64,000 bases of DNA from an uncultured Bacillus sp. (GTDB taxonomy: Bacteria; Bacillota; Bacilli; Bacillales_B; DSM-18226): NCBI RefSeq assembly GCF_946478885.1, contig NZ_CAMLDX010000004.1, forward strand, positions 18,888 to 82,887, written 5' to 3'. This document shows, piece by piece, positions 1 to 32,609 of the stretch. How positions within the stretch are numbered: position 1 is the first letter of the stretch; each line of letters opens with the position of its first letter. Under the pieces are notes generated by a model, which searched no databases, had not been told where the DNA came from, and saw only the letters and a list, made by a program, of their open reading frames with translations. The position numbers were made by a program, and so were the translations under genes.

Positions 1-658
1 TTTTCATATCAGTAAAGCTATTGGTCATAGCACCACTGCCAAATGAAGGGGCTAAACTAGCCACCGTTGGAGCGTGTCATATCTCTGCCTGGTGCGTAAA
101 ATTATGGATACCTAAAGCCCGGTTGAATTTCGTGTACAGATACGCCTCTTCATTATCAATCTCAGCGCTTCCCAGGCTAAATATGCCCTCGGTACGATTT
201 ACTGTAATACTTCGCCCGTTGCTAGTAACTGTTTTCGTAAATGACTTGTCACGGACATCTTTCACTTTCTTCGCAATTTTATCAATCGCATCTTCCCAGG
301 AAATTGGTTCCCATTTATCACTTCCTGGTTTACGAACTACTGGATGAGTTAAACGCATATCCGAATTGTGCATTTCCCTAAGTGAACGCCCTTTTGGACA
401 AAGAGCTCCCTCATTAATTGGATGATCTTTTAAACCTTCAGTGGAGACCAATTCATCTCCTGCAACCTTCACTTCAATTCCGCACCCCACGGAACAAAAG
501 TGACAAACCCCAAAAGAAGTTGTTGCGCCAGCCGTCATTAATGGAAATGCTTTGTTATTATCTTCCGTCTTGGCAAATGCATGTTTTTCCGCCAAGTACG
601 AAGCCGCAACCGAGGCGGCAGTATACTTCATAAACTTACGTCTAGACATCTTAGGCAT
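1..658 (-). CDS. fdnG: Formate dehydrogenase major subunit, Tat-exported, selenocysteine-containing (5' part; runs off the window)
   Basis: Catalytic molybdopterin subunit of a respiratory (FdnG/FdoG-type) formate dehydrogenase, which oxidises formate on the outer face of the membrane. Residues 5-10 form a twin-arginine motif (SRRKFM) followed by a hydrophobic stretch. A [4Fe-4S] motif follows at C52, C55, C59 and C87 (CHFCSVGC ... ALCPKG). After residue 193 (NFTHQAEI) an in-frame TGA at 77-79 is followed in the same frame by HAPTVASLAPSFGSGAMTN, which continues the FdnG family sequence exactly where E. coli FdnG has selenocysteine. I therefore read codon 194 as Sec and extend the gene to the window edge. 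A SECIS hairpin lies just downstream. The start at 658 follows GGGGAGG with an 11-nt gap; the ATG three codons later is also possible. The beta and gamma subunits are expected beyond the left edge. Seen: signal, Cys motif, TGA context. Inferred: decoding as Sec. Confidence 0.9.
48..65 (-). promoter_or_regulatory. Bacterial SECIS hairpin for selenocysteine insertion
   Basis: Read on the minus strand, this RNA folds as GG, bulged U, GGCU, loop AGUUU, AGCC, CC: a 4-bp upper stem, a single bulged U and a 2-bp lower stem. The start lies exactly 11 nt after the UGA. The E. coli fdhF SECIS has the same layout (GG, bulged U, 4 bp, GU-containing loop, 11 nt from UGA), and SelB recognises the bulged U and the loop G-U. 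All parts are visible here. Binding by SelB is inferred. Confidence 0.85.
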
Positions 659-1433
659 ACTATTCTTTTCCTCCCCACTACTGAAATGCTTATATATCTC
701 TTTTGATAAGCGTTAAGATACATTCAAACACTCAACTTATTAGCTAAACACATAAGGAGAACTCTCGTTTAAAAGGTCAGCAAGTGAAAGCGCTTACACA
801 TTCCTGCACACCCTTGATAAAACAAAGGATTATTTGCATCTTTTACAATTGTTCTCTATAAAAATGAATTTTTTTAACTTTAATAAGTCTCGTATACTAT
901 TTAATGTTACTAGTGTACTACCGGTTCCTACACCTAATCTTTCCATCCAATTTCCACATTTGAGCCCCCTTTTTTTTCATTAACAAATAGATAGCATTTT
1001 CAAGATTTAAAAAATAATATCTATTTTATCTGGAGCTAATGTTTGTTCTTTGAATATGAAACATTTCTACTCCATTCTCTATGTATAATATAAATATGTT
1101 CACAAATATTTCAAATGACTTTTGTCACAGCCACAATAATTTATTTTCACAAAAAGCACAGGCACATTAAAGGTAAAGAAGAAAATTTTATTGCCCCTCC
1201 GGACTAAATGAGACACCTCCTCCTTTGAATACGGATAAAAAAAAGGTACTTTTTTTAGTAAAAATGATGTGTAAGACGGATATTTATCAGAATTTGCAGG
1301 GCGTCGGATTTAACTCTATTGTCCTCAAAGCCCCAATTTCCTTCATAATATAAGCTGTATCATTTGAAAATATCAGACAAAATCGCTATGCTAAAGAATG
1401 TACCTTACTATTATCGTAAAGGAGAAATGCCAA
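659..1433. other. Intergenic region without a recognisable gene
   Basis: About 775 bases of AT-rich DNA between the divergent formate dehydrogenase and aldo/keto reductase genes. Apart from the cre-like site at 785-798 I see only short TG-rich/TCACA half-sites that are too weak to call as Fnr operators. There is no credible ORF or RNA. The length suggests regulatory DNA or an eroded gene. Confidence 0.5.
785..798. promoter_or_regulatory. cre site (CcpA operator), candidate
   Basis: TGAAAGCGCTTACA matches the Bacillus cre consensus TGWAANCGNTNWCA at every position. It lies about 130 nt upstream of the formate dehydrogenase start codon on the opposite strand. This suggests carbon catabolite control of that operon. 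No clear promoter was assigned, so whether CcpA would activate or repress is unknown. Confidence 0.6.
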
Positions 1434-6896: not shown

Positions 6897-7673
6897 TTAA
6901 CCTTCGGCAATTTGGGCAGCAGCTCCCAGCTCAAACCATTTTAGTTTTTCCTGTAACTGGACCACCTCTCCAACCAGAATTAATGCCGGATTTTGAATTT
7001 TCTCCTTCTCAATCAATTCCTCCATGGATTCGAGATTTCCAGTAAAGATTCTTTGTCTTTCTGTTGTTCCCCATTCAATTACGGCGGCAGGGGTTTGCGG
7101 ACTTCTCCCGTTGGCGATTAGCTGCTGAGTAATATACTGGATGTTTGCAACACCCATATAAAAAGCAATCGTATCAATTCCTTGTGCCAGAGCCGCCCAA
7201 TTTAGACGTGTCGCTCCTTTATCATTACAGGTATGTCCTGTTACAATGGCAAAGCTTGACGCATAATCCCGGTGTGTTACAGGAATGCCGGCATATGCAG
7301 GTGCCGCTATGCCTGCGGTTATTCCCGGAACAATTTCATACGGAATTCCATGCTGCGACAATACTTCTGCCTCCTCTCCAGCGCGGCCGAACACACAAGG
7401 GTCCCCTCCCTTTAATCGGGTTACTATTTTTCCTTCCATGGCTTTTTCAATTAATAGGGCATGTATTTCTTCCTGAATAAGATGATGATTACCCGGAGAT
7501 TTTCCGCAAAAGATTAACTCCGCTGTATCTTTTGCATACTCCAAAAGCCTTGGATTCACGAGCCGGTCATAGGCAATGACATCCGCCTTTTGAATGCATT
7601 CAAGACCATAAACAGTGATTAATTTCGGGTCTCCTGGCCCAGCACCGACTAAATAGACTTTCCCTTGTTCCAT
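6897..7673 (-). CDS. cobA: Uroporphyrinogen-III C-methyltransferase (SUMT)
   Basis: Adds SAM methyl groups at C2 and C7 of uroporphyrinogen III to give precorrin-2, the branch point to cobalamin and siroheme. At 258 residues it is the stand-alone SUMT without the CysG oxidase/chelatase domain. Family marks are VGAGPGDPKLITVYGLE at the N-terminus, RLKGGDPCVFGRAGEE, and PGITAGIAAPAYAGIP. The start follows AAGGGAG with a 7-nt gap. Last gene of the minus-strand cbi operon, 43 bases after cbiA. Its product could also feed siroheme for the CysI sulfite reductase at 47.6 kb, provided dehydrogenase/ferrochelatase genes exist elsewhere. Confidence 0.93.
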   Translation of the reverse strand: MEQGKVYLVGAGPGDPKLITVYGLECIQKADVIAYDRLVNPRLLEYAKDTAELIFCGKSPGNHHLIQEEIHALLIEKAMEGKIVTRLKGGDPCVFGRAGEEAEVLSQHGIPYEIVPGITAGIAAPAYAGIPVTHRDYASSFAIVTGHTCNDKGATRLNWAALAQGIDTIAFYMGVANIQYITQQLIANGRSPQTPAAVIEWGTTERQRIFTGNLESMEELIEKEKIQNPALILVGEVVQLQEKLKWFELGAAAQIAEG

Positions 7674-7716
7674 AACAAATCTCCCTTATTATTCATTCGT
7701 TTTCCCTAACGGGCGG

Positions 7717-9099
7717 TCATACTCTCTTAGCTTTTTGTTTGTATTTATTACATGTCTCTATCCAGCGCCGGGCAAGATCCGGATTGGAAGCAAAATGAAA
7801 GTGGGTGTATCCTGCCGTGAGATTCCCTTTCAAACAGCCTTCATCCTTAAGACCTAATCTTCCTTTCGTTTGATACGCATAGGGTAATTTTTCCCCGCTC
7901 TCAAAAATAGAATAATGAAATTCATGCCCTTTTGCCTGCATCCCTTCACCGATTAGGAAATTATCCCTTCTCCCGAAGATTTCACGATAACCCATAGATA
8001 CCAGCTTCTTTTGCATTTTCACCTTACCGGAGATAATTCCTAACATGGGATATTCCTGTCCTGCTGTATTCGTTATGGACTCTGTCAAATACATAAATCC
8101 ACCGCATTCTGCCAGAGTTGGCAGCCCTTTTTCAATGGCTGACTGGATAGAATTCTTTGCCTTTTGATTGCACGCTAACGTACCTGCGTATTCCTCAGGA
8201 AATCCTCCTCCCAAATATAAACCATCACTGCCCACAGGAACCTCTTCATCCTGCAAAGGGGAAAAGGTGACCAACTTCGCACCGTGCGCTTCTAGCAAGT
8301 CAAGATTCTCCTGATAATAAAAATTGAACGCTGCATCCCGCGCAACGGCAATGGTCACCTCAGGTTCCTTGCGGTTGCTGAATATTCCATTAGATACTAC
8401 TGGAAAATCAGGAGCCATTGCCAAATCATATAATCGATCAATGTCAATAGTCTCAGACACTAGGTTTCCTAATTTCTCAAAAAATGGATTGAGTTCCCCT
8501 CGTTCAATCACTGGTATTAAACCTAAATGGCGACTTGGTATATCGATCCCACACTCTTCCTTCAAATATCCGATTACCGGTACTTGACACTCCTGTTCAA
8601 TAGCAGCCTTTACAATTGCATAATGCCCCTTACTGCCAACTCTGTTCACAATGACTCCGACTATATTAGGCCTGCTATCAAAGGACTGAAATCCTTTGAC
8701 GATTGCGGCGGCACTGCGAGCCATACTTTTGCAATTTACGATCAGCAACACCGGACTTTCCGTAATTAAGCTGATTTCAGCTGTTGAACCGGTATTTTCA
8801 AGCGGGCTTTTTCCATCATAAAACCCCATGACCCCTTCAATGATGGAAATATCTGCATCCAATCCGACTCGTGCTGTTATTTCACGAACAGTCTGATGCT
8901 CAAACATCCAGCTGTCTAAATTCCTCGATACTCTCCCTGTAACGGCTGTGTGATAGGTAGGATCGATGTAATCCGGACCGCATTTAAACCCTTGGACTGT
9001 GTATCCTTTTTGCTGTAATGCTGCCATAATGCCAATTGTCAATGTAGTTTTGCCTACACCGCTGTTTGTTCCGGCAATGACCAGTCTTCTCTTATTCAT
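7717..9099 (-). CDS. cbiA: Cobyrinate a,c-diamide synthase
   Basis: Glutamine- and ATP-dependent amidation of the a and c carboxylates of cobyrinate. The 460-residue protein has the expected two parts. The N-terminal dethiobiotin-synthetase-like domain carries the P-loop GTNSGVGKTTLT at about residues 10-21. The C-terminal class I glutamine amidotransferase domain carries the nucleophile in LAECGGFMYL and the catalytic His in GYTHFHFASNP. The start has GGGAGG 8 nt upstream, inside cbiG, and the two genes overlap by 8 bases. Part of the cbi operon. Confidence 0.95.
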   Translation of the reverse strand: MNKRRLVIAGTNSGVGKTTLTIGIMAALQQKGYTVQGFKCGPDYIDPTYHTAVTGRVSRNLDSWMFEHQTVREITARVGLDADISIIEGVMGFYDGKSPLENTGSTAEISLITESPVLLIVNCKSMARSAAAIVKGFQSFDSRPNIVGVIVNRVGSKGHYAIVKAAIEQECQVPVIGYLKEECGIDIPSRHLGLIPVIERGELNPFFEKLGNLVSETIDIDRLYDLAMAPDFPVVSNGIFSNRKEPEVTIAVARDAAFNFYYQENLDLLEAHGAKLVTFSPLQDEEVPVGSDGLYLGGGFPEEYAGTLACNQKAKNSIQSAIEKGLPTLAECGGFMYLTESITNTAGQEYPMLGIISGKVKMQKKLVSMGYREIFGRRDNFLIGEGMQAKGHEFHYSIFESGEKLPYAYQTKGRLGLKDEGCLKGNLTAGYTHFHFASNPDLARRWIETCNKYKQKAKRV

Positions 9100-10237
9100 G
9101 ATGATTCCTCCCTGAAAAAGGAATGAGGCCTACTGAGATAGTCACATTGCCTGATTTTTTCTTTATCAGCTCGAGCTTAGACGCTCCGGTATAAATTCGA
9201 ACTGCAGGTTCACTAACTCCGTATACTCCGGTGTACTTAAAGACCGTTTCAGAAGGTGCCTGTATCTCTGCCTGATTTAATTGCTCCGGAGAATAATAGA
9301 CAAATTTCCATCCGTACTTCTTTGCTATCTCGCAAAGACCTTTTTCATCTTTTTTGATATCAATGGTACAAATCGCCTTTACACTTTTCCATGAAATACA
9401 ACACTCGGACAATGTTTCAAGAATAACCTGCTCGATTTCATGGACAGAGGTTCCCCGGTTGCAGCCCATCCCGATTGCCACACACTTCGGGCGAAAGAGG
9501 ATTCCATTCTGTAGAATCATCTCTTCCTCCCTATCTAATAAACGATGGGTCACGATTAACGCGGCATCCGGCTTTGCCTGAATAGCATCCTCGATAGAAT
9601 TATAGATCATAATATTTTCAGGCAGCGGAGTCTCATACAGCCACCAATCAGGTTCTCCTGACTCCTGCACAATTGCGACATGCTCTTCATTAACAACCGA
9701 TGCGCTGACAGGAGTTAATTTTTCCGGAGAATCCCATACCCAGCCAAAGTGTGAGCCAAACAAATCAACCGGGATTGTTTTTTGCACATCAGATGCCGTT
9801 GTAATCACGGCCCTTGCCTTCAGTGCTGCCGCCACTTCCCGGGTAAGCTCATTTGCTCCTCCAATGTGGCCGGACAGAACACTAATAACATTTTCTCCCC
9901 GGTCGTCAATCACCACAACTGCCGGATCTGTTTTCTTATCCTGTAAAAGCGGTGCAATCATTCGTACCACTGCCCCAAGAGAAATAATCAGGATGATACC
10001 CTTGTATTGCTGAAAGAGAGCAGGAAGGAGCAGTTTTACGCTTCCCGAAAAAAGCTGAATATTCCTAATTTCTTCATCCCCTTTGGCAAACTTGCTCATA
10101 TAATACAAATCAGTCTGTGAAAAAACTTTATCCAGCCTGCGAGCCATTTCAACACCATGCTTTGTGATCGCTATTATCGCATAGGGATGTCTCTGTTGAA
10201 TAGGAGTCAGCTCACCTTCTTTTAATTTCAGGATCAT
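9092..10237 (-). CDS. cbiG: Cobalt-precorrin-5A hydrolase
   Basis: Opens the delta-lactone of cobalt-precorrin-5A and releases acetaldehyde, a step specific to the anaerobic (early cobalt) B12 route. The 381-residue protein shows the N-terminal CbiG region (YAIIAITKHGVEMARRL), the central motif SLGAVVRMIAPLLQDKKTDPAVVVID with LSGHIGGANELT, and the C-terminal CobE-like domain (AIGMGCNRGTS). It overlaps cbiF by 4 bases (ATGA) and cbiA by 8. Its presence is good evidence that the pathway here is the oxygen-independent one. Confidence 0.94.
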   Translation of the reverse strand: MILKLKEGELTPIQQRHPYAIIAITKHGVEMARRLDKVFSQTDLYYMSKFAKGDEEIRNIQLFSGSVKLLLPALFQQYKGIILIISLGAVVRMIAPLLQDKKTDPAVVVIDDRGENVISVLSGHIGGANELTREVAAALKARAVITTASDVQKTIPVDLFGSHFGWVWDSPEKLTPVSASVVNEEHVAIVQESGEPDWWLYETPLPENIMIYNSIEDAIQAKPDAALIVTHRLLDREEEMILQNGILFRPKCVAIGMGCNRGTSVHEIEQVILETLSECCISWKSVKAICTIDIKKDEKGLCEIAKKYGWKFVYYSPEQLNQAEIQAPSETVFKYTGVYGVSEPAVRIYTGASKLELIKKKSGNVTISVGLIPFSGRNHHE

Positions 10238-11013
10238 TGGCTTATACCTCTGCGGTATCCATGAGAAAATGAAGCATCATACAGCTTGGAGCGGAATTCA
10301 TCTTTTTCATAAATATTCGGGTCGAGTGCCCAGCCTGCTAAAATCATAGCTGTTTTACGTATTCCGTTTTTCTGCATTGCTTCATCCAGATTAGCCAATG
10401 TGGTACGAATGACTTTTTGATCAGGCCATGATGCCCGTTGAATAACCGCAACAGGAGTCTCCTCCTCCCAGCCTGCGGCTTGCAGCTCCTTCACAATTTT
10501 TTTTGTTAAAGTAGCGCTTAAAAACAAGGCTAGTGTACAACGGTGACGCGCCAAATCCCGTAGTTTTTCAAATTCAGGGACCGGTGTACGACCTTCCGCC
10601 CTAGTCAAAATCAAGGTTTGCGTTAAATCAGGAATCGTCAATTCCGCTCCAATCGCAGCGGCTGCGGCAAAAACGGAACTTACCCCCGGAATTACTTCAT
10701 ACTCAATCTTTTCCTTCTTTAATAAAGCAATTTGTTCCTTAATGGCACCATACATAGATGGGTCACCGGTATGTATCCGGGCAACCATTTTTCCTGCATT
10801 AATCCGATCAATCATGATCGAGGTCATTTCTTCTAAATGCATACCGGCTGTTTTTAAAACTTCCGCCTCAGGCTTTGCCTTTGCTATTAATTCATCATTT
10901 ACTAATGAATCAGTATATAAAATAACATCAGCGTTCTGCAGGATGTTCAATCCCTTCACCGTAATTAAATCGGGATCCCCGGGACCGGCTCCAATAATAT
11001 AAACTTTTCTCAT
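10234..11013 (-). CDS. cbiF: Cobalt-precorrin-4 C11-methyltransferase
   Basis: SAM-dependent methylation at C11 of cobalt-precorrin-4. At 259 residues it is a typical tetrapyrrole methylase, with the N-terminal YIIGAGPGDPDLITVKGL, the central RIHTGDPSMYGAI and PGVSSVFAAAAAIGAELTIP. The order around it (cbiL before, cbiG after) and the TDSLVNDELI region fit CbiF/CobM rather than CobA. It overlaps cbiL and cbiG by 4 bases on each side, so translation is coupled. Confidence 0.93.
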   Translation of the reverse strand: MRKVYIIGAGPGDPDLITVKGLNILQNADVILYTDSLVNDELIAKAKPEAEVLKTAGMHLEEMTSIMIDRINAGKMVARIHTGDPSMYGAIKEQIALLKKEKIEYEVIPGVSSVFAAAAAIGAELTIPDLTQTLILTRAEGRTPVPEFEKLRDLARHRCTLALFLSATLTKKIVKELQAAGWEEETPVAVIQRASWPDQKVIRTTLANLDEAMQKNGIRKTAMILAGWALDPNIYEKDEFRSKLYDASFSHGYRRGISQ

Positions 11014-11717
11014 TTTCGCACCACCATTAATGTCAAATATTCCAGTTCAACTCCTTCGAGCTCATCCATCTGCCATATGACTTCTTCATCAGAAGTTACT
11101 TTCGTAATTACATGAGCCTTGTCTAATACATGCAAATCTTTTAAGACCTTGATCATTAAATCCATTACCTTCGCTACTTTTATGAATACAACCGTGTCAT
11201 GTTCAGCGATTGCTTTTTTCATTGCTTCATAGTCTTCCCGCGCTGGTATGATGGCAAAATGTTCATCGCCATCCGCAAATGGGATGACCAGCCTTGAAGC
11301 AGCTCCATTAATGGATGATATACCGGGCACACTCTTAATCTCTATCTCCGGATGCAGCTCATACATCAATTTCATCATATGAATAAAGGTACTGTATAAA
11401 AGCGGGTCTCCCTCTGTTACAAAGGCAACATCCTTTCCATCCCGCAGCTTTTCCCAAATTAATTCAACAGCCGTTCTCCACTCCCGATCCAAAACCGATT
11501 CATCCTTCGTCATGGGAAAAATCAGTCCAAGCATTTCCTTTTCTTCAGGACGGATATACACATCGACAATTCGCTGTGCATAACTCTTACTGCCTTTTCT
11601 TTTTTTCGGATATGCAATCACAGGGGATTCCTGTATGACACGGAATGCCTTTACCGTGATCAGTTCCGGATCTCCCGGTCCCACTCCGAGACCATATAAT
11701 GTACCAAGCTTACTCAT
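11010..11717 (-). CDS. cbiL: Cobalt-factor II (precorrin-2) C20-methyltransferase
   Basis: Methylates C20 of cobalt-factor II/precorrin-2. The 235-residue protein has the tetrapyrrole methylase signature [17 protein letters not shown], the CbiL-typical [12 protein letters not shown] loop, [15 protein letters not shown] and [16 protein letters not shown]. The ATG lies 8 bases inside the end of cbiET and is preceded by AAAGGA. Fourth-to-last gene of the operon. Confidence 0.93.
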
Positions 11718-12930
11718 CTATGTCTTCCTTTCGTTGTGCCGTTATAATATACACAGGGTTTAGTGGAGCAAAACGATGCATCCCGAGAATTTGTTTACTC
11801 CTCGAAATTTGCGTATGTGTTATCGTTGTTTGAAAACCGGCTTGTGCAAAGGCCTCATTCGCACGATATAAGTTTTCAATGGTCGCTGCGTTTAACACAA
11901 TCCTCCCACCCTTTTTTAACCGCAGGCAGCAGGTGTAAATTAATTGAGACATTTCTCCGCCTGTTCCGCCAATAAAAATAGCATCAGGATCCGGGAATGT
12001 CTCAAGGCCCTCTGGTGCTTTACCATGAACTATCGTTATGTCAACCCTGAACTTTCTTTGATTTTGCAGACAATTCTCTAAATCTGCTTCATTTTTTTCT
12101 ATAGCAAAAATCCCGCCTTCAGGCGCCAATTTCCCTGCTTCAATCGCCATCGAGCCTGTGCATGTTCCAATATCCCAAACAATACTGTTTTTCTGTAGCC
12201 TTAATGCAGACAGACTCAATACTCGAATTTCCTTTTTCGTAATTAACCCTTTATCCGGCTTACGCTGTGAAAATTTCTCATCGTCTATCCCTATCGACCA
12301 GACAGGACCATCGCCTGTTTTTTTCAAAATAACTACATTTAAAGAGGAAAACGTTAGCTGAGCCATTTCCTCCAATGAATACCATCCTGTTCTTTCATTC
12401 TCACCCTGCAGATTTTCCGCAACAAACGCCCGATACTCTGTCATCCCGAAGGAAATCAAGTACTGCGCAATTTGGTTTGGATTATTATCTTCGTCTGTCA
12501 GAAGTGCGAGTTTGGTCCTTCCATCAATTCTCTGAGCTAGCCCTTTTATACTGCGACCATGGAGACTTATGACTATCGCATCTTGCCAGCTCTCTCCCAT
12601 TTTCGCAAAGGCAAGCTGGACAGAGCTTACATAGGGATATACATGGAGGTTGATTTTCTTTGAAAGAAATCCACCGATTCCATAAAAAAGCGGATCGCCT
12701 GAAGCCAATATGACTGTAGGACGCGCTTCATGCTGGAGCCTTTCAGCAATTTCCTTTAATCCGCTTTTCACAGCTACCTTTTCTCCAGAATAATCCGGGA
12801 AAAAGGATAATACTCTTTCTCCTCCGACCAGTACTTCACTTTCATAAATCCACTTTTTATATTGAGGTAGTAACCCTTCTTGTCCGTTATCACCAATCCC
12901 GATTAATTTCATCGTTTGAGTCAATCCCAA
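11710..12930 (-). CDS. cbiET: CbiE-CbiT fusion: cobalt-precorrin-7 C5-methyltransferase / C15-methyltransferase (decarboxylating)
   Basis: A single 400-odd-residue polypeptide fuses two enzymes that are separate in Salmonella. Residues about 1-200 are the CbiE methylase ([31 protein letters not shown]). Residues about 205-400 are the Rossmann-type CbiT methyltransferase ([24 protein letters not shown] at the SAM site). This is the CobL-like arrangement also found in B. megaterium. The true start may be the ATG at 12912 (MKLIGIGD); the TTG at 12930 has AAGGG nearby but adds six non-conserved residues. The start region overlaps the end of cbiD. Confidence 0.93.
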
Positions 12931-14020
12931 CAGCCCTTCCCAATAATTGTCCTTTCAGCGAGTATATCGCCGTTTCAACTTCGATCCCGCCATTAATATG
13001 CTTTAATGCTGTATGACAGCAGGCTTCACAAAGCTTGTCAAAAAAAGACTCATGACCTTCCCTTAGCATCCATTCACCAACCTGCGAGGCAGTATTGGCA
13101 TGAAGAACTTCCTGAATCAGTTGACCATCTGCTCCGGCGCTTTTGGCTATCTTGGCCAAAAACTCAAAGCTGACAGATGAGCCGCTTGAATGAACCATCA
13201 TTGCCCCTTGGGCAAGCTTTGAAAATTTCCCCATCATTCCAACAAGTGATACCTTTTGAATGCTATGCTTCTTGCATTGCTTAATGGAAAAGCCAATAAA
13301 ATCACCCATTTCGATAAAGGCAACCTCCGGTAATTGAGGGTATAGATTCATGGCATATCTTTCACTGCGTCCTCCCGTTGTGAGAACAAGATGATCCGAA
13401 CCACAAGCCTTTGCTACGTTAATCGCCTCAGCAATACTGGCCATATAGGCTGAACTTGAGAAAGGAACAACGATTCCCCTTGTACCTAAAATGGAAATCC
13501 CTCCGATAATACCGAGACGTCCGTTCAATGTTTGCTTAGCAATTTCTTCACCATTCGGCACAGAAATCACTACCTTAACGCCTCTATGAATCTGATAGTC
13601 CTGTAAAACCTGCTGAACCGTCGAAAATATCATTTGTCGGGGGACGGGATTGATGGCTGCCTCACCAACAGAAATCGGAAGCCCTGGTTTTGTCACCCTG
13701 CCAACCCCTATGCCGCCGTCTAAGACAATCCCCTGCGTATCTGTCCAGCTCACTGTGGCTCCAATATGTGCTTGGTGTGTGGCATCCGGATCATCACCGG
13801 CATCCTTAATCGTTTCTGCGTATACAGCATTTTCTTTGATTTCACATTTTTCCATGATAAAAGTCGCGTCACGCCCAATCGGAAGATGGATGGTTGCCGT
13901 ATCCTGCTCCTCACCTGTAATGAGTGCAACTAAAGCGGCCTTTGCTACTGCAGTCGAGCAGGCACCGGTTGTAAATCCCTGCCTCATTTGCGACCGATCC
14001 TTTTTGGCCTTTGCTTCCAT
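12890..14020 (-). CDS. cbiD: Cobalt-precorrin-5B C1-methyltransferase
   Basis: SAM-dependent C1 methylation of cobalt-precorrin-5B, specific to the anaerobic B12 pathway. The 376-residue length is normal. The characteristic N-terminal motif [19 protein letters not shown] lies at residues 12-30, followed by [11 protein letters not shown] and [14 protein letters not shown]. It starts 2 bases after the cbiC stop and overlaps cbiET. No unusual features. Confidence 0.94.
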
Positions 14021-14022
14021 CT

Positions 14023-14673
14023 CTAGTTCCCGTCTGCTAAAAGAGAAATTGCATTTAATGCAGCCACTGTTACCGTACTGCCGCCTTTACGGCCGGAATT
14101 GGTAATGAAAGGAACATCCGTTATTTTTGCCAGTTCTTCTTTTGATTCAGCAGCAGAAACAAACCCGACCGGCATTCCAATAATTAAATCCGGCTTTGCC
14201 GTTCCTTCTTTAATTAAGCGAATCAGTTCCAACAGAGCAGTCGGTGCGTTCCCAATCGCATAGATCCCGCCCTCATTCTCACGAACTGCTTTTCTCATCG
14301 AAATAATAGCTCTTGTGGTATTCAGCCGTTTCGCTTCAGCTGCCACATCGGGATCTGAAATATAACAATGCAAATCCCCGCCATACTTTTGAAACCTGGC
14401 TTTCCCGGTGCCGCTCTCTATCATTTGCACATCAGCAATCACGTGACGCCCTTTTCGAATCGCTTCTATTCCGGCACGTACTGCATCAGGGTGAATGATG
14501 ACGCTTCTTCCTAATTCAAAATCAGCTGAAGCATGGATAATCCGACGAACAATTTTCCATTCGTCATCAGTAAAATCATGGGGCCCCATTTCTTCTGCAA
14601 TAATGGAAAAGCTATAATCATATATTTTGTCAGGCTCCACCGTTAACGGTTTGAAATCCGTTTTAAAGTCCAT
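14023..14673 (-). CDS. cbiC: Cobalt-precorrin-8 methylmutase
   Basis: Moves a methyl group from C11 to C12 to form cobyrinate. 216 residues, family length. The catalytic histidine is H47 in VRRIIHASADFE. The motifs GRHVIADVQMIESG and IGNAPTALLELIRLI with IGMPVGFVSAAESKEEL are those of CbiC/CobH. It overlaps cbiJ by 11 bases and is followed by cbiD after a 2-base gap. Confidence 0.94.
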   Translation of the reverse strand: MDFKTDFKPLTVEPDKIYDYSFSIIAEEMGPHDFTDDEWKIVRRIIHASADFELGRSVIIHPDAVRAGIEAIRKGRHVIADVQMIESGTGKARFQKYGGDLHCYISDPDVAAEAKRLNTTRAIISMRKAVRENEGGIYAIGNAPTALLELIRLIKEGTAKPDLIIGMPVGFVSAAESKEELAKITDVPFITNSGRKGGSTVTVAALNAISLLADGN

Positions 14674-15460
14674 TGTCTATTTCCTCCTTATAGGTACTAG
14701 TAATGCTTGTTAAGTGATTTAAAATGGCTGAATAGCTGGAATATTTATTTTGATACGGAACCTTTGGACGGGCAATCAGAATGGTTTCAATTTCACATTC
14801 CAAGGCAGCTTCTATTTTTTCATCTACTGCTCCTACGTTCCCGCTTTCCTTAGTAATCATCAGTGTGACGCCGTATTGCTGGAATAAGGCGTTGTTTAAT
14901 TCTTTTGAAAACGGCCCCTGGATCGCGACAATATCTTTTTGTTCAATCCCTAGCTTCTGACATTTTTCTAAATTATCTATGCGAGGAAGCATTCTTGCAA
15001 TTAATCTCGTATTCTCTAAACCTGCTAATTCCTTGACGAATATCTCCAGTGTTTTACTGCCGGTAGTCAGCATAATAACCCCGCGTTTCGCAGCCGCTAT
15101 TTGGGCCGCTTCCTTGTAATCACGAACAACGGTTACTTTCTCATATCGTTCATATTGCTGTGTTTCCCGTTCAAAACGAATATAAGAAACATGTGCTTCT
15201 CTCGCAGCCCGGAGTGCATTTTTCGATGCCTCTTCAGCAAATGGATGACTCGCATCCACCACTGCATGGATACACTGACGCTCTATTAATTCTTTCATAT
15301 CCTCTGAGGTAAGCCGGCCAACTGTTACCTCTATCCCCATTTCCTGAAGACTCTTTGCGGCTGTTTCCGTTACAACTGATGCTAAAACCGGGAATCCCTC
15401 CCTCTTGATGTTAACGGCTAATTCTCTTGCGTCGCTTGTTCCTGCCAATAGGAATATCAC
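14663..15460 (-). CDS. cbiJ: Cobalt-precorrin-6A reductase
   Basis: NAD(P)H-dependent reductase of the corrin ring. The 265-residue product begins ILLAGTSDARELA-like (IFLLAGTSDARELAVNI), the signature of CbiJ/CobK. VDASHPFAEEASKNALRAA, the ITKESGNVGAVDEKIEAA region and LIARPKVP near the C-terminus are also typical. It starts one base after the cbiX stop and overlaps cbiC by 11 bases. Confidence 0.92.
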   Translation of the reverse strand: MIFLLAGTSDARELAVNIKREGFPVLASVVTETAAKSLQEMGIEVTVGRLTSEDMKELIERQCIHAVVDASHPFAEEASKNALRAAREAHVSYIRFERETQQYERYEKVTVVRDYKEAAQIAAAKRGVIMLTTGSKTLEIFVKELAGLENTRLIARMLPRIDNLEKCQKLGIEQKDIVAIQGPFSKELNNALFQQYGVTLMITKESGNVGAVDEKIEAALECEIETILIARPKVPYQNKYSSYSAILNHLTSITSTYKEEIDNGL

Positions 15461-15461
15461 G

Positions 15462-16379
15462 TTAATTTTTCACCTCGTCTTCGTGATGATGCTCATGGTC
15501 ATAAGGGTGGTCATGGTCATGATGAGCATGACCGTGAGGATGGTGATGCACATGTTCATGATGATGAACATGACCATGTGCTTGAACAAATCGAAGATAG
15601 TTTTCTAAATCTTCTTCACCGCTTGATCTTCCCTCAAGTGCTTCCGTCACACGTTCTTTTAAAATAGATTGCAGCTTTGGATGATAACCGAAGTACTTTG
15701 CCAGTACAAATTCATGTTCGGGAAATTGCTTTTGATACCGCTCCAGCATCTTCTCCATCCGCTCCATTAATATGCCGGTAAATAAAAAATACGGTAGCAT
15801 AACGACTTTCTTAGCCCCCAGCCTGATACACCGTTCAATCCCCTCATCAACCAGCGGCAATGTAACCCCCATAAAGGCACTCTCGACCCAACGGACATTT
15901 AGTATTTCCCACAGCAAACGCGTAATTTTATAAAAATCACTATTTGCCTCAGCGTCGCTGCCTCCGCGGCCAATTAAAAGAATGGCTGTTTCCGGGTACT
16001 CGGCGTTCGGATTAAAACCGGTTTCTGCTAAGCGATCCATCATGATTTCCAAAGCTTTAGGATGAACACCAATGGTTTGTCCGTAAATAAATTCAACATT
16101 CGGATACTTGTCTCTTGCGGCCAATATTTCTGCAGGGATATGAAGCTTTGAGTGACCGGCATGCAGTAAAATGATTGGAATCACAATCACCTCTGAGGCA
16201 CCTTTTGCTGCGCAATTTTCAATCCCTTGTGATATGGAAGGCAAACCAAACTCAAGAAAGCATGTTTCGACGATTAAATCCGGCTCAAGCGCCGGAATCA
16301 TCTTTTCTACAAATCTTCGAACCTCTTCATTTCCGGACTCCAATCTGCTGCCATGTCCAACAAATAATACTGCTCTCAC
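15462..16379 (-). CDS. cbiX: Sirohydrochlorin cobaltochelatase, long form with His-rich tail
   Basis: Inserts Co(II) into sirohydrochlorin, the first committed step of the anaerobic route. The 305-residue long CbiX has two chelatase-like repeats. Repeat one holds the active-site histidines (VGHGSR at H10; ILLHAGHSKLHIP). Repeat two has degenerate IGRGGSD in place of GHGSR, so the N-terminal half is probably catalytic. The last 38 residues hold about 19 histidines, a metal-storage-like tail. Unlike the B. megaterium CbiX that I recall as carrying an MXCXXC Fe-S site, this tail has no cysteine. The gene lies 15 bases after cbiH and 1 base before cbiJ. Confidence 0.92.
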   Translation of the reverse strand: MRAVLFVGHGSRLESGNEEVRRFVEKMIPALEPDLIVETCFLEFGLPSISQGIENCAAKGASEVIVIPIILLHAGHSKLHIPAEILAARDKYPNVEFIYGQTIGVHPKALEIMMDRLAETGFNPNAEYPETAILLIGRGGSDAEANSDFYKITRLLWEILNVRWVESAFMGVTLPLVDEGIERCIRLGAKKVVMLPYFLFTGILMERMEKMLERYQKQFPEHEFVLAKYFGYHPKLQSILKERVTEALEGRSSGEEDLENYLRFVQAHGHVHHHEHVHHHPHGHAHHDHDHPYDHEHHHEDEVKN

Positions 16380-16394
16380 TTTTGTTCCTCCTCT

Positions 16395-18038
16395 TCAATC
16401 TCCGCAAGGGGCCGGTTCAATATTGATAACCGGGGTGATATCCTTGTAGGGAAACCCCTGTAATTCTTTTACCCTCTTAAAATATTTAAACAGACGTTCA
16501 TTTGGATGGGCATTTTGTTGATATTCATCGACAATTTTAGTCACCAACTCCACCAGCTGATCGGGTTCAATTCCTTCTGCAACTGGCTGACCTGGATGGG
16601 CAGTTCGGCCAACCGGTTTGGCTCCTAAGAATAAATCAAACTTTCCTTTGCGAAAGACAATACCGATATCATTCATGACCGCTCCATAGCACGCCATTCC
16701 GCAGCCGTTTAACCCTATATTGAGCTCCTTCGGCATTTTTTCTCCGCCTAGTCTGCTTTGTAATGCATCAGCATACGGAATGGCCTCTGTTTTCTCTCCA
16801 TCACAGAAATCACAAGCTTTAATTTTAACAACATTCCCTATTGGGGAAAGAATCAAGCCGCATTCCCGCAAACTTCCAGTGATCCTTTCAGGTTCGGCTG
16901 CAGGAATTCTTATCACCATGCAGTGATCCGGAGTATATTCAATCGTACCTTGTTCTCCAGCTGCTTCTGCAATGGCAAGCAATTGAACAGGTGTAAATTG
17001 CTTGTTTGCTACACCCGGGCTAACGGCAAACTCAAAAATTGACTCTGTTGTTTGCTGGACAACCGCATGTTTGGAAGAAGAAAAAGGTGTACTTGAAACA
17101 CGGGACAATGCTTCCATTGCGATTTCATAAGAATTACTCCTTTGTTCAGCCTTGCCTGCAGTGGTTCCTGCAGCTGTACGATGGTTTTGCTGCATACTTG
17201 TGTCCTGTGAAAGAGCCCATGGCTCTGCATCTTTTTGTAGTCGTTGATGCAGCTCAAGCGGCTGTTTTTCTTCTATAAGGGTATATTTTTTTTGATAACC
17301 TCGTGGAGTAATCATTTTATTGTCATAAATAAAAGTGGATGAATTTCCGATAATCACGGTGGTCAGCATGCCGATTTCATAATTCAGCATATTAGATAAA
17401 TTCGTGACAACGATTTGCTGCCGCTCACGGTAAGCACTTTTAACCAGACCAACAGGTGTTTCAGGTGCGCGGTACTTCAGTAAAATGTTTTGCGCCTCGA
17501 TAATTTGTCTGGTTCTTCGCCCGCTGCGCGGATTGTACAGGGCAATAACGAAGTCCGCCATTGCCGCTGCTTCTACACGCTTGGCTATTGTACTCCACGG
17601 TGTTAGATGATCGCTCAAACTAATCGTGCAGGAATCGTGCATAATAGGTGCCCCCAGTAATGAAGCACAGGAATTGATAGCTGAGATACCAGGAACGATT
17701 TCCACCCCAATTCCTTCGTCTTCCCTCCAGCCTTTTTCCAAAAGTACCTCATACACAAGACCAGCCATTCCATATACCCCAGAATCACCACTCGAAATTA
17801 CGGCAACTTTTTTGCCCTGCTCAGCCTGTTTCACCGCTTCCAGCGCGCGGCTTACTTCTTCTGTCATTCCCGTACTAATAATTGTTTGAGCACTGATTAA
17901 CTCCCGAATTAAATCCATATACGTCTTATATCCAATAATCAAGTCACATTCTCTAATTGCCTCTACTGCCCGTTCCGTTATATGCTTAGCATCTCCCGGT
18001 CCAAAACCAACCACAAATATTTTTCCCTTATTCAACAT
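16395..18038 (-). CDS. cbiH: CbiH60-type cobalt-factor III C17-methyltransferase with Fe-S extension
   Basis: Methylates C17 and contracts the macrocycle to give cobalt-precorrin-4. The product is 547 residues, about twice a plain CbiH. Residues 1-250 are the tetrapyrrole methylase (FVVGFGPGDAKHITERA; ISSGDSGVYGMAGL; PGISAINSCASLLGAP; LYNPRSGRR). Residues about 330-535 are a nitrite/sulfite-reductase-like domain with an Fe-S motif at C409, C412 (CDFC) and C446, C450 (NGCGMAC). This matches CbiH60 of B. megaterium, whose Fe-S domain is needed in vitro. First gene of the operon, about 170 nt after the cobalamin riboswitch and 40 nt after its terminator. A low-complexity linker lies at residues 260-330. 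Confidence 0.94.
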   Translation of the reverse strand: MLNKGKIFVVGFGPGDAKHITERAVEAIRECDLIIGYKTYMDLIRELISAQTIISTGMTEEVSRALEAVKQAEQGKKVAVISSGDSGVYGMAGLVYEVLLEKGWREDEGIGVEIVPGISAINSCASLLGAPIMHDSCTISLSDHLTPWSTIAKRVEAAAMADFVIALYNPRSGRRTRQIIEAQNILLKYRAPETPVGLVKSAYRERQQIVVTNLSNMLNYEIGMLTTVIIGNSSTFIYDNKMITPRGYQKKYTLIEEKQPLELHQRLQKDAEPWALSQDTSMQQNHRTAAGTTAGKAEQRSNSYEIAMEALSRVSSTPFSSSKHAVVQQTTESIFEFAVSPGVANKQFTPVQLLAIAEAAGEQGTIEYTPDHCMVIRIPAAEPERITGSLRECGLILSPIGNVVKIKACDFCDGEKTEAIPYADALQSRLGGEKMPKELNIGLNGCGMACYGAVMNDIGIVFRKGKFDLFLGAKPVGRTAHPGQPVAEGIEPDQLVELVTKIVDEYQQNAHPNERLFKYFKRVKELQGFPYKDITPVINIEPAPCGD

Positions 18039-18080
18039 CGCGACATCTCCTTCACTTACTCTATTGATCCTTCAGAAACG

Positions 18081-18113
18081 TGAAAAAAACCTTAACTCAT
18101 CGAGTTAAGGTTT
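18081..18113 (-). terminator. Riboswitch-controlled terminator before cbiH
   Basis: Perfect 12-bp hairpin AAACCTTAACTC-GAT-GAGTTAAGGTTT followed by a T run on the minus strand, between the cobalamin aptamer and cbiH. It is the expression platform, so B12 should cause early termination of the operon. Confidence 0.9.
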
Positions 18114-18206
18114 CAGTAGCCAAAATATCACAAAACAGTATACTCTCACTGTTTTTAAAATTCTGTCTGCTTTACCCATTCCCTCCGAATAAGTTACAAT
18201 CTCTTT

Positions 18207-18368
18207 TAAAAGCAGGTCTCCTGGCTTTGCCTCATCTTAAACTTGTCCCTTCCCGGTATGATCAACCAGTGGTTTTGACAATATCATCAGCATTACAGTA
18301 GCGGGGGCTGCACCGGATTTTCACCGATTTCCCTATTATCCCTTGCATGACACAAAGGGCACTTTTAA
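18207..18368 (-). ncRNA. Cobalamin riboswitch controlling the cbi operon
   Basis: Read on the minus strand, the aptamer core is plain: AGGGAA, CGGTGAAAATCCGGTGC, AGCCCCCGCTACTGTAA, a CCACTG element, CCGGGAAGG and the B12 box GCCAGGAGACCTGC at 18211-18224. These are the ordered conserved blocks of the adenosylcobalamin class. The terminator at 18081-18113 follows, indicating transcriptional OFF control of cbiH-cobA. Confidence 0.95.
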
Positions 18369-18707
18369 TTACCATATTTAGTTTTTTATTTTTAGAAATC
18401 TCCTTTTCCGGAAGATTTCCACAGTTTAAAACATAACTATCATAGATCAACTTGTCATGATTGAAAAGAGGTATCACATGTTTCAACAAAACTATTTTTT
18501 CTTTCAAACTGATTTTGTGGGGTTTTTCCCTTAAAATATCCAAAAAAATTTTTTATGCTAGTCAATCTGGTTGACTCGTGATACACTAAATTAGAAATTT
18601 TTACAATTCTATTAGCTTTACGGTGGAGCTGTCCCAAAAGCAAAGGTGTACACCACAATCCAATATCTTGTATCATTTTGCATAAATAAGCACTTGATAG
18701 CGATTAA

Positions 18708-18872
18708 TTGTGATGCCTCACTCCTTTGGAAACAGCCCCTTAAAAGGGAAGTTGGTTAAAATCCAACGCGGTCCCGCCACTGTATTGGGGAGCACTATTA
18801 CGTTGTTGCCACTGTCTCACGACGGGAAGGCTGTAATATTGCAATGAACCAGAGCCAGGAGACCTTGCCGCA
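18708..18872 (+). ncRNA. Cobalamin riboswitch controlling cbiMNQO
   Basis: Plus-strand aptamer with AAAAGGGAA, TTGGTTAAAATCCAACGC, GTCCCGCCACTGTA, GCCACTG, GACGGGAAGGC and the B12 box GCCAGGAGACCTTGCC at 18854-18869. A terminator follows about 90 nt later. It shares the intergenic region with the divergent riboswitch of the cbi operon. Confidence 0.95.
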
Positions 18873-18958
18873 GAGTATAAGCAGTATCAGCCTACGAGGA
18901 TGGGTGTGCGATTACAGCAAAAGTGACCAACGATCACAACCAAGCTATTTTTCCATTA

Positions 18959-18991
18959 CGCACTTCTTTCTCCGTGAAAGAAGTGCTTTTT
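18959..18991 (+). terminator. Riboswitch-controlled terminator before cbiM
   Basis: Hairpin GCACTTCTTTC-TCCGT-GAAAGAAGTGC followed by TTTTT, between the aptamer and cbiM. Confidence 0.88.
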
Positions 18992-19076
18992 ACATTTCGA
19001 AAAAAGGTACACCTTTCAAATGAAAGAGGCGTGATTCTATGAATGGTTGTAAAAGAATTTGAAGGGAAGAAAACAG

Positions 19077-19820
19077 ATGAAAAGAGTCGTTTTAAAAATC
19101 ATTTATTTCGCATTGCTGCTTCTCATTGTTCCAAAAGTATCCTTCGCCATGCATATTATGGAAGGGTTTTTACCGATTGAGTGGGCAATTTTTTGGTGGG
19201 GAATGACCCTGCCCTTCCTCGTTCTTGGGTTCCGTTCGATACGTAAGAGCATCCAAGAAAACCCTGATACTAAAATGATGCTTGGTCTCTCAGGAGCGTT
19301 TGCCTTTGTTTTATCAGCTTTAAAGCTGCCTTCTGTTACAGGAAGCTGTTCACATCCTACCGGAGTCGGATTAGGTACGATTTTGTTTGGTCCATTCGCG
19401 ATGAGTGTGATCGGATCGATCGTTCTTTTATTCCAAGCCTTATTATTGGCCCATGGCGGAATAACGACGCTTGGTGCAAACGCATTTTCCATGGCTGTTG
19501 TCGGACCGATTCTTGCCTATCTCGTTTATAAAGGGTCCACAAAACTGAATCTTCCTTTTTCGGTAGCTGTATTCCTAGCCGCTACAATTAGCGATTTAGG
19601 TACATATATGGTAACCTCGATTCAGCTTGCCCTTGCTTTTCCATCTGAAGCAGGAGGCTTCTATGCATCATTCGCTAAATTTGCCGGAATTTTTGCCATT
19701 ACCCAGATTCCATTAGCTATTAGCGAAGGACTACTTACCGTGATTGTGATGAATTTCCTGAAAAAATATAATTTATCGGAATTAAAAGCACTTAGTGTAC
19801 TTAAGAAGGAGGCCCGGTAA
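19077..19820 (+). CDS. cbiM: Cobalt ECF transporter substrate-specific subunit CbiM
   Basis: Membrane S-component that captures Co(II) for the CbiMNQO energy-coupling-factor transporter. It begins with a cleavable signal peptide. After LIVPKVSFA comes MHIMEGFLP, the invariant mature N-terminus whose amino group and second-position His bind the metal. Five or six further membrane segments follow, with [21 protein letters not shown] carrying additional metal-binding residues. The ATG at 19077 is preceded by GAAGGGA; an upstream TTG at 19059 adds six residues without a better site. First gene of the operon; the riboswitch and transport of the B12 metal fit together. Confidence 0.95.
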
Positions 19821-19821
19821 T

Positions 19822-20130
19822 ATGAAAAAAAATATACTGCTCATTGGCATTGTCATTCTACTCACAATTATTCCATTATTCATCCAAAAAGAGGCCGAGT
19901 TTGGCGGTGCTGATGGAGAAGCGGAAACAGCCATAAGTGAAATCGACTCCAGCTATGAACCGTGGTTCTCCAATATTTGGGAACCACCAAGTGGAGAAAT
20001 TGAAAGCTTATTATTTGCCCTTCAGGCTGCCATAGGAGCTGGATTTATCGGTTATTTTATCGGCTGGACCCGGGGGAAACACAGTGGCAAAGAGAGGAAA
20101 GAAGATAATACCCATGCTTCTCATCGATAA
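19822..20130 (+). CDS. cbiN: Cobalt transporter accessory subunit CbiN
   Basis: 102-residue protein with two membrane segments (about residues 4-20 and 72-90) that flank an external acidic loop (EFGGADGEAETAISEIDSSYEPW). This is the typical form of CbiN, which loads Co(II) into CbiM. A separate cbiN indicates a cobalt rather than a fused NikMN nickel system. The ATG at 19822 follows AAGGAGG, one base after the cbiM stop. Confidence 0.92.
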   Translation: MKKNILLIGIVILLTIIPLFIQKEAEFGGADGEAETAISEIDSSYEPWFSNIWEPPSGEIESLLFALQAAIGAGFIGYFIGWTRGKHSGKERKEDNTHASHR

Positions 20131-20902
20131 ATTTGCCTATATAAATCGTTTGAAAAAGATTCATCCGGCAGAGAAAATGTTCCTCTCTTTTTTTCTGCTG
20201 GTGTTTACTATAACCGTCAAAGATTTAATGGTCTCAATCATCACTTTTATCGTAATGAGTTCTTTAACTATTTTTGCAGCTAAAATCCCGTTTCGCAATT
20301 ATGTGCAATTACTGCTTCTGCCTGTTTTTTTTCTTATTTCAAGTACAATCTCCATATTGTTTTCTTTTGCTCGTAAGGATCTTATCCTTCCTTCTTTCAT
20401 TTGGAGAATAGAATTGGGCAAATGGCAAATATTCATCACCGAAAACAATGCCAGCACAGTTATTTCACTCGTCTTTATCGTACTTAGTAGCATCAGCTGT
20501 TTATACTTTTTAACATTAACCACCCCATTTCATGGGATCTTTCAGATTCTTCGCAAGCTGAGGATGCCACAGTTATTGATTGAAATAATTGAAATTACCT
20601 ATAGATTTATCTTTGTTTTCTTAGAATCAGCTTTAACCATCTATCGGGCACAGCATTCGCGTCTGGGTTATCAATCGATTAAACAATCGATTCACTCGCT
20701 AGCTTTGTTAACAGCATCCCTATTTGTTACGGTTTTTCATCGGACTAAAGAGCTGACTGTTGCCATGAATTCCCGCTGTATCGGAGAAGAGGTTATATAT
20801 TCAGATGATTCATACAAATTATCATTAAGGAGCTGGTTCGTTATTTTAGGTATCATCTCCCTTATCGTAATGGTCTATTTCAAGTTTGGAGGCACATTGT
20901 AG
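20114..20902 (+). CDS. cbiQ: Cobalt ECF transporter transmembrane subunit CbiQ
   Basis: T-component (EcfT) of the cobalt transporter that couples CbiM to the CbiO ATPase. It has several membrane helices and two cytoplasmic coupling regions, the second around VAMNSRCIGEE. The ATG at 20114 (MLLIDKFAYIN) overlaps cbiN by 17 bases. A GTG at 20084 is in frame but lacks conservation; GAGG lies somewhat far upstream of the ATG. The 262-residue length is normal. Confidence 0.9.
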   Translation: MLLIDKFAYINRLKKIHPAEKMFLSFFLLVFTITVKDLMVSIITFIVMSSLTIFAAKIPFRNYVQLLLLPVFFLISSTISILFSFARKDLILPSFIWRIELGKWQIFITENNASTVISLVFIVLSSISCLYFLTLTTPFHGIFQILRKLRMPQLLIEIIEITYRFIFVFLESALTIYRAQHSRLGYQSIKQSIHSLALLTASLFVTVFHRTKELTVAMNSRCIGEEVIYSDDSYKLSLRSWFVILGIISLIVMVYFKFGGTL

Positions 20903-21738
20903 TGGATGAATTACTTTTTCATATCCATCAGCTTACCTATTCCTATGCGGATGGCACCTGCGCATTACATAATATTACTCTTTCGATAAAAAAAGGGAAA
21001 AAGATTGCCTTGCTGGGAAACAACGGGGCAGGAAAATCAACATTCTTCCTTCATTTAAATGGAATTCTAAAACCAACCTCCGGGAGCATTTTAATAAATG
21101 GTGAACCGATCAAATATGATCGTAAATCCTTACTAAGCCTTAGAAAAAAAGTAGGTATTGTCTTTCAGAATCCAGATTCCCAATTGTTTTCCGGCAATGT
21201 CAAACAAGACATTGCCTTTGGACCGTTGAATTTAGGCTGGTCTAAGGAAAAGGTCCATCAGCGGACTTCTTGGGCAATGGAACAAACAGATGTAACGCAA
21301 TTACAAGAAAGGCCGATTCATTTTCTGAGCTTAGGACAGAAAAAACGGGTAGCCGTTGCTGGCATTTTAGCAATGGATCCAGAGATTTTTATTTTTGACG
21401 AACCAACTGCAGGATTGGATGCCTATTACTCCAAACAAATGAAACAGCTGCTTCATCAAGTTCATCAAGATAACAAAACCATCCTTCTATCAACACACGA
21501 TGTCCATTTTGCCTATGAATGGGCAGACGAAATCATGGTGATCAGCAATGGAGAGATTCTTTATCATGGTGACCCTGTTTCACTTTTTTATGAGCAGGAC
21601 ATTTTGGACAAAGCTCACTTGGAAAAGCCATGGGTATTTGAAACAGCACAAATCATGAGGCAAAAACAACTGCTTCCGGAAATCACTTCAATGCCCCGCA
21701 ACCGGGAAGAATTATTTGCCATGCTTCAAAACGATTAA
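20902..21738 (+). CDS. cbiO: Cobalt ECF transporter ATP-binding subunit CbiO
   Basis: ABC ATPase driving cobalt uptake, 278 residues. Walker A is GNNGAGKST (residues 38-46), the Q-loop is FQNPDSQLFS (typical of ECF ATPases), the signature is LSLGQKKR, and Walker B is IFIFDEPTAGLD, followed by the switch His in STHDVHFA. It starts with GTG overlapping the cbiQ TAG by one base, with GGAGG 9 nt upstream. Last gene of cbiMNQO. Being a single ATPase it should act as a homodimer. Confidence 0.95.
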   Translation: MDELLFHIHQLTYSYADGTCALHNITLSIKKGKKIALLGNNGAGKSTFFLHLNGILKPTSGSILINGEPIKYDRKSLLSLRKKVGIVFQNPDSQLFSGNVKQDIAFGPLNLGWSKEKVHQRTSWAMEQTDVTQLQERPIHFLSLGQKKRVAVAGILAMDPEIFIFDEPTAGLDAYYSKQMKQLLHQVHQDNKTILLSTHDVHFAYEWADEIMVISNGEILYHGDPVSLFYEQDILDKAHLEKPWVFETAQIMRQKQLLPEITSMPRNREELFAMLQND

Positions 21739-27263: not shown

Positions 27264-27283
27264 CATCAACCACAATATATCAA

Positions 27284-27440
27284 GCCAATAGGCAGGTCTC
27301 CTGGCTCAGGTTCAACGCTTCAACAGGCCTTCCCGGATATATATTCCAGTGGCATTTTCTATGAAGCTCCCCCATACAGTGGCGGGACCGCTGAAGATTT
27401 CTACTTCATTCCCTATTCTCCCATTTGGGCACCTATTGCT
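27284..27440 (-). ncRNA. Cobalamin riboswitch controlling cobT
   Basis: Minus-strand aptamer: GGTGCCC, ATAGGGAAT, CAGCGGTCCCGCCACTGTA, GCCACTGG, CCGGGAAGGC and the B12 box GAGCCAGGAGACCTGCC near 27291-27307. The terminator just downstream makes it a transcriptional OFF switch. Third cobalamin riboswitch in the window. Confidence 0.95.
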
Positions 27441-27793
27441 TTTATTCTTTTCTGAATATAATTTACATGAGATATTGAGATTCGTCAATATCTATTCTTC
27501 TTCAATAAGAATAGAAAAACTGTGTAAAAGGAATTGGATGCAAGAATTACACTCTATTACTTATGTAATCATTCAAAACTCCTTTCATTCCTTTTATAGG
27601 ATAGAAGGAGTTGTTCTTTATATCTAGCAATATTTAAATACTTAGCATGATTCTGTCTAAAATCAAATAAAAATTCAACATATTATGCTGTATAATTTTT
27701 TTGAAAATTAGTATAAAATAAGTCTGTGAAAGGGCTTTCAAACTTTTACAATGGGGATATCACGAATTAATAGTAAACTAGGGGGAATATGAA
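27441..27793. other. Intergenic region before the catechol dioxygenase
   Basis: About 350 bases, AT-rich. It holds a TATAAT hexamer at 27691 without a convincing -35 and the cre-like palindrome at 27727-27740. No gene seen; a 92-residue frame that starts inside the riboswitch is not credible. Confidence 0.5.
27727..27740. promoter_or_regulatory. cre-like palindrome before the catechol dioxygenase
   Basis: TGAAAGGGCTTTCA agrees with the CcpA consensus TGWAANCGNTNWCA at all fixed positions except one (G for C) and is nearly self-complementary. It lies 54 nt before the dioxygenase start, which would suit carbon catabolite repression of aromatic degradation. An operator for another regulator is equally possible. 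Confidence 0.45.
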
Positions 27794-32222: not shown

Positions 32223-32259
32223 GATACTCACAGTTATCCCCAATCCTCTCTCTGCCCAA

Positions 32260-32438: not shown

Positions 32439-32609
32439 ATCGCAAAGTGAGGCATTATTTAATTTTCATAATAAAACCGCTAATTTCAGCCTACAATAAC
32501 CGATTCTATCTGTCAATAATATGTGTCTGGAAATTATATTTATATATTATATATTTGCTATTTTCTATTTTCTCTGTATTTACCTTGTTGATTGAAATGA
32601 ATACGATTA

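Follow-up and report, generated by a model that had tools for sequence, protein, structure and literature searches.

The formate dehydrogenase locus and its surroundings

The window analyzed in this study is a whole stretch of 64,000 nucleotides (64 kb) from an uncultured Bacillus sp. Positions 1..658 of the minus strand hold the first 219 codons of an FdnG-type formate dehydrogenase (FDH) alpha-subunit gene, which exits the window at base 1. The frame starts with the ATG at 658 and runs to a TGA at 79-77, which gives a product of 193 aa. Beyond this TGA, the same frame reads HAPTVASLAPSFGSGAMTNSFTDMK, with no stop down to base 2. On comparison with homologues, the in-frame UGA (77..79, minus strand) was assigned as the selenocysteine (Sec) codon, residue 194, and it is followed by HAP. 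The original prediction was that an FdnG-like frame halts at a TGA at the Sec site of FdnG and then continues, and this agrees with the occurrence of TGA at the Sec codon in 8/8 window-type genes (the window gene and seven relatives). The window gene reads U-H-A-P at this site and so contains UHxP, the motif given for the family TIGR01553 in a table of PMC13188914.

The sequence GGGGAGG at 670..676 (minus strand), 11 nt 5' of the ATG, is likely the ribosome-binding site. SRRKFMK (626..646, minus strand; residues 5-11), seen in the translation, is presumably a twin-arginine (Tat) export motif. C-x2-C-x3-C-x27-C (398..505, minus strand; residues 52, 55, 59, and 87) is what we take to be the [4Fe-4S] ligand pattern of molybdopterin oxidoreductases. 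The precomputed Pfam annotation assigns PF04879 to the 193-aa product, and it is at this length that the protein database stores it (record P0001). The expectation that ordinary gene calling would truncate the gene was thus borne out. Further records of 193-194 aa were found for Neobacillus vireti (P0004), Tepidibacillus fermentans, Lentibacillus cibarius, and two Virgibacillus strains. Because the protein database search admitted only lengths of 0.55-1.75 times the query, these matches show that truncated records exist, and the absence of full-length records does not follow from them.

Another cluster of the window, at about 6897-21738, appears to serve the biosynthesis of cobalamin and the uptake of cobalt; CbiJ, CbiX, CbiM, and CbiQ were assigned by Pfam and its other members by eye. 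Three cobalamin riboswitches lie at 18194-18381, 18706-18879, and 27274-27451, and a lysine riboswitch lies at 32258-32440 on the minus strand. At 47618-53675, a sulfite-reductase-like pair (a NIR_SIR protein and a flavodoxin/FAD protein) adjoins a molybdopterin oxidoreductase of 680 aa. The latter had eight NCBIfam matches at 1e-60, none of which reached its cut-off.

If UGA were a sense codon genome-wide, the frame would run through the TGA without any Sec. Such an alternative code is vanishingly improbable. Among the 43 listed open reading frames (ORFs) of the window, 12 are terminated by TGA, and in 11 of these 12 the next in-frame stop lies within 0-67 codons. The twelfth (16395-18038) has a long frame beyond its TGA and was considered as a second candidate, but it is not a selenoprotein gene. 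It encodes a fusion of TP_methylase and NIR_SIR, and what follows in the same frame is a separate, adjacent cbiX gene with its own GTG start and GAGGAGG site. The CbiX product has a His-rich tail. None of the 12 TGA-ending ORFs of the window belongs to a conserved protein that runs through the in-frame TGA.

Relatives of the window gene and the fdn operon

When GTDB genome contigs were scanned with the 219-aa frame, 37 loci were recovered. Thirteen of them were translated: 11 have TGA at the Sec codon, one (L030) has a Cys codon, and one (L037) could not be aligned at this codon. The remaining 24 loci (23 from Burkholderia and one from Ignatzschineria) stand outside this count. The six closest loci (L001-L006) are all from Bacillaceae and share 71-85% protein identity with the window frame. 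Their hosts are Robertmurraya massiliosenegalensis, an uncultured Bacillus MAG, Tepidibacillus decaturensis, two Cerasibacillus, and one Virgibacillus. A DNA search of the family to which G001 belongs (193 genomes) added the seventh relative, locus L090 of genome G166; G001 is the genome of L001 and the nearest named relative. Near-full-length DNA matches to the window gene were present in only 3 of these 193 genomes (G001, G002, and G166), and 64 others had short or weak matches only.

The window edge cuts the gene, so that no intact 3' part is visible, and this leaves room for a pseudogene reading, in which a nonsense mutation or a sequencing error has put a UGA into a Cys-type gene. All seven relatives, however, have TGA at the Sec codon within frames of 1,023-1,027 codons that contain no other stop. 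The conservation of the UGA in these relatives refutes the pseudogene reading, and the hairpin downstream, which is selected at silent sites and covaries (see below), also speaks against it. We regard this explanation as very improbable.

The full-length product of L001 (1024 aa, with TGA read as Sec) scored 979 bits on TIGR01553, for which the cut-off is 814.2. In whole-genome scans, the window-type copies of G001, G002, and G166 scored 956-973 bits, also above the cut-off, and the main-type FDH-N of the same family scored 1,242-1,324 bits. The window part, which comprises 219 of about 1,024 residues, scored 214 bits over residues 4-219 when TGA was read as U.

In the tree of full-length proteins (24 proteins), the seven window-type rows grouped as a clade (100/100) that is separate from the main type; in the N-terminal tree, which includes the window, all eight window-type rows formed a single clade (100/100). 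The trees disagree on a third type (L123 and L124), which joined the window type in the full-length tree but grouped, weakly, with the main type in the N-terminal one. The separate clade and its rarity indicate that the window gene represents a second FDH-N type and not the usual one.

The nearest DNA found for the window fdnG is 80% identical; the corresponding values for feoB and the RNase J gene of the window are 76% and 71%. No close genome was found among the 193 of the G001 family or among 397 sampled from the order. For the RNase J gene, the best six matches among the 397 sampled genomes all came from the family of G001, with 69-71% identity. The window therefore belongs near this family.

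Genes for FdnH-like and FdnI-like proteins lie directly 3' of fdnG in 7/7 relatives (L001 and 6/6 others). In L001, both remain below their NCBIfam cut-offs (FdnH-like, 257.8 vs. 334.7 bits; FdnI-like, 100.6 vs. 115.85 bits), which indicates that the partner subunits have diverged. A protein of about 573 aa is also encoded near fdn (L001:8061-9782; L090:17529-19001; L002:7690-7920, where the contig end cuts the gene). It lies 5' of fdn in L001 and 3' in L090 and L002, and neither Pfam (at 1e-5) nor NCBIfam (at 1e-3) gave a match for it.

A class-V aminotransferase (PF00266, SufS-like) is encoded after fdnGHI at L001:14605-16137, L002:5518-6993, and L090:15753-17204, and was not found in loci L003-L006. 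This aminotransferase may provide the window-type enzyme with selenium or sulfur. G001, G002, and G166 also possess a main-type Sec FDH-N. Because these three genomes hold both types and an aminotransferase lies 3' of the operon, the window type could be imagined as a functionally distinct second Sec FDH of Bacillaceae, with the SufS-like aminotransferase as a possible dedicated Se/S donor. We consider this proposal unlikely. Judged by its sequence, the product is a real but ordinary selenoprotein, from the rarer second clade of FDH-N.

The hairpin downstream of the UGA

A bacterial SECIS hairpin was assigned at 48..65 on the minus strand (nt 15-32, with the U of UGA as 1) from its fold, covariation, and invariant codons. 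It consists of GG, the bulged U17 (window position 63), an upper stem of GGCU/AGCC around the loop AGUUU, and the closing CC. G23-U24 correspond to window positions 57-56. Every element of the predicted hairpin was found to be correct: a start 11 nt past the UGA, a bulged U, an upper stem of 4 bp, and GU in the loop. In the E. coli-type SECIS described in PMC8659212, the hairpin begins 11 nt from the UGA, U17 is bulged, and G23 and U24 lie in the loop; the window has all of these at the exact positions. The likeness to the geometry of E. coli fdhF that had been pointed out from the sequence is consistent with this account in its 11-nt spacer, U17, G23, and U24.

The hairpin was also compared with the bSECIS model as outlined in PMC13188914. 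This model calls for an apical loop of 3-9 nt, an upper stem of 4-16 bp, 16-37 nt from the UGA to the apical loop, a minimum free energy of -7.5 kcal/mol or lower, and a G at loop position 1 or 2 followed mostly by G or U. The window has the loop AGUUU (or GUU, if closed by A-U) with 4-5 bp above the bulge, and the loop begins A22-G23-U24. The spacing is 18 nt for the AGUUU loop or 19 nt for the GUU loop. The energy is -8.4 kcal/mol for the 20-nt hairpin and -8.7 kcal/mol for the first 42 nt.

The folding of the RNA after the UGA, which had been suggested as a check, gave a divided answer. The 20-nt hairpin was modestly stable by itself (z -2.62; 2/200 shuffles were equally good), whereas longer pieces of the RNA past the UGA (36, 52, and 60 nt) were no more stable than shuffles (z -0.44, -0.67, and -0.17, respectively). 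The 79-nt stretch reached z -2.49, but its fold also recruits pairs further downstream. Folding alone is weak evidence, and the comparison with relatives is therefore decisive.

Codons +4 to +11 past the UGA (ACG GTG GCT AGT TTA GCC CCT TCA) are the same in 8/8 window-type sequences. Over the shared part, 17 of 119 degenerate codons with an invariant amino acid are identical in all eight sequences, these eight codons included, and a run of eight identical codons was matched in 1 of 20,000 permutations. For the seven full-length relatives, 53/538 such codons are identical, and an equally long run appeared in 0/20,000 permutations. These codon comparisons indicate selection on the silent sites of the hairpin, and in the window copy these sites are intact.

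The covariation alignment comprised 17 of the 26 UGA sequences (16 distinct), with L034, L090, L113-L117, L121, and L122 omitted. Pairing cells amounted to 90.6%, against a shuffled mean of 73.3, and none of 500 shuffles was as high. The covariation score reached 0.439 (shuffled mean, 0.098; 0/500 shuffles as high) and fell to 0.129 or less when the partner was slid. Two of the five covariation measures could not be distinguished from shuffles: both-sided changes occurred in 3/6 pairs (87/500 shuffles as high), and five further pair types were seen (152/500 shuffles as high). The two lowest pairs of the hairpin are disrupted in 3 and 4 of the 16 distinct sequences. Since related sequences may beat such shuffles without any structure, we take the covariation as support and not as proof.

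U17 and U24 do not vary among the 17 aligned UGA sequences, and G23 hardly does. This pattern fits the view in PMC8659212 that SelB contacts U17 and G23. In single-sequence folds of non-canonical UGA copies, L007 formed another hairpin, and L032, L123, and L124 formed stems without the U17 bulge.

Three homologues carry a Cys codon at the Sec position (L118, TGT; L119, TGC; L030, TGC), and the SECIS hairpin was absent from the predicted folds of 3/3. In L118, L119, and L030, the UGA and the hairpin are absent together. The host genomes of L118 and L119 also carry a UGA copy. In L119 (genome G012), the TGC is followed by a sequence resembling a decayed SECIS, ACGGTTCCCGGTTTAGC, and this resemblance suggests a Sec-to-Cys conversion.

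Selenocysteine machinery, interpretation, and known systems

No tRNA-Sec was found within the 64-kb window. Genes selA, selB, and selD were over the cut-off in 7/7 genomes with a window-type gene, and tRNA-Sec was over the cut-off in 6/6 relatives plus G166. ARAGORN gave the anticodon UCA at the six tRNA-Sec loci tested. SelD of all seven relatives is itself interrupted by UGA (KAG*GCK or KSG*GCK), and the UGA before GCK occupies the Sec/Cys position. Judging from these relatives, the strain of the window likely possesses the Sec machinery.

The original prediction remarked that selenoproteins are uncommon in Bacillaceae, and for this lineage the counts contradict it. Within the G001 family, selA and tRNA-Sec were each over the cut-off in 172/193 genomes, so the remark is wrong here. 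In the sample from the order, selA was over the cut-off in 181/397 genomes. B. subtilis, one of the controls, gave no selA signal. In the same family, selD was over the cut-off in 180/193 genomes, and among the matches listed every row except the top seven has one TGA. FDH-N alpha was over the cut-off in 120/193 genomes. A hand count of 129 rows showed a copy with a single TGA in 118 of the 120; in the other two (G075 and G107), the match lies wholly past the Sec region. In the 13 UGA copies of the main and other types that were retrieved (L110-L117 and L120-L124), the TGA is at the Sec codon, and in at least two genomes (G012 and G189) a Sec copy and a Cys copy of FDH-N occur together.

A table of a 2006 survey gives only three selenoproteins for Bacillales (PMC1794560), and this low count may be the source of the impression of rarity. 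Passages of PMC13188914 and PMC5029168 call FDH the bacterial selenoprotein with the widest distribution. In a literature search on Sec in these genera, no title on the topic was recognised among the matches listed, which leaves its absence from print unproven. The main text of PMC12016495 contains neither "formate dehydrogenase" nor "selenoprotein".

One more explanation is a stranded gene, of genuine Sec ancestry: the strain would no longer have its Sec machinery and would produce just a dead fragment of 193 aa. Loss of this kind is conceivable in the family, where 21/193 genomes lack selA over the cut-off. All seven examined genomes with a window-type gene, however, have selA, selB, selD, and tRNA-Sec, and the silent sites of the window hairpin are intact. 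We believe that this explanation is extremely improbable.

We therefore return to the reading of a Sec codon. We are highly confident that the start of the gene encodes a Sec-containing, Tat-exported, membrane-anchored formate dehydrogenase (the alpha subunit of the FDH-N type), in which the UGA would be read by means of the SECIS hairpin. The central claim that had been made, a Sec-UGA with a SECIS in an FdnG-type FDH, is supported by the conservation, the covariation, the TIGR01553 family, and the truncated database record. What follows on Sec insertion, the remainder of the gene, export, and chemistry is predicted from sequence. When the ribosome arrives at the UGA (codon 194), the downstream hairpin would bind SelB loaded with Sec-tRNA(Sec). 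Sec would be incorporated in place of termination, and about 830 further residues would be translated. The Sec would then ligate the Mo/W of the bis-MGD cofactor and participate in formate oxidation, and the electrons would pass through the FdnH-like and FdnI-like subunits to the quinone pool. The gene offers a clean case of a selenoprotein gene whose product is stored as a fragment of 193 aa in the protein database. It corrects the impression of Sec rarity in Bacillaceae and adds no new mechanism for this enzyme class.

Compared with the known systems, the full-length relatives of the window gene pass TIGR01553, the Sec-containing equivalog family of E. coli FdnG (FDH-N alpha), and so share this family with it. 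The window gene resembles E. coli FdnG in the Tat-type N-terminus and in Sec followed by His (UHxP), and the relatives share the order fdnG-fdnH-fdnI. The beta and gamma partners in L001 differ from those of E. coli FDH-N in falling below the NCBIfam cut-offs. Apart from the shared positions, the SECIS letters of the window presumably differ from those of E. coli fdhF. The window-type FDH-N of L001-L006 and L090 have a SECIS core identical to that of the window, and the species differ. The main-type Sec FDH-N (L110-L117 and L120-L122) share the UGA site, the bulged-U hairpin, and the GU loop with the window gene. They form a separate clade, and their upper stem is UGCC/GGCA, in contrast to GGCU/AGCC in the window type; in the main-type hairpin, either of two adjacent Us may bulge.
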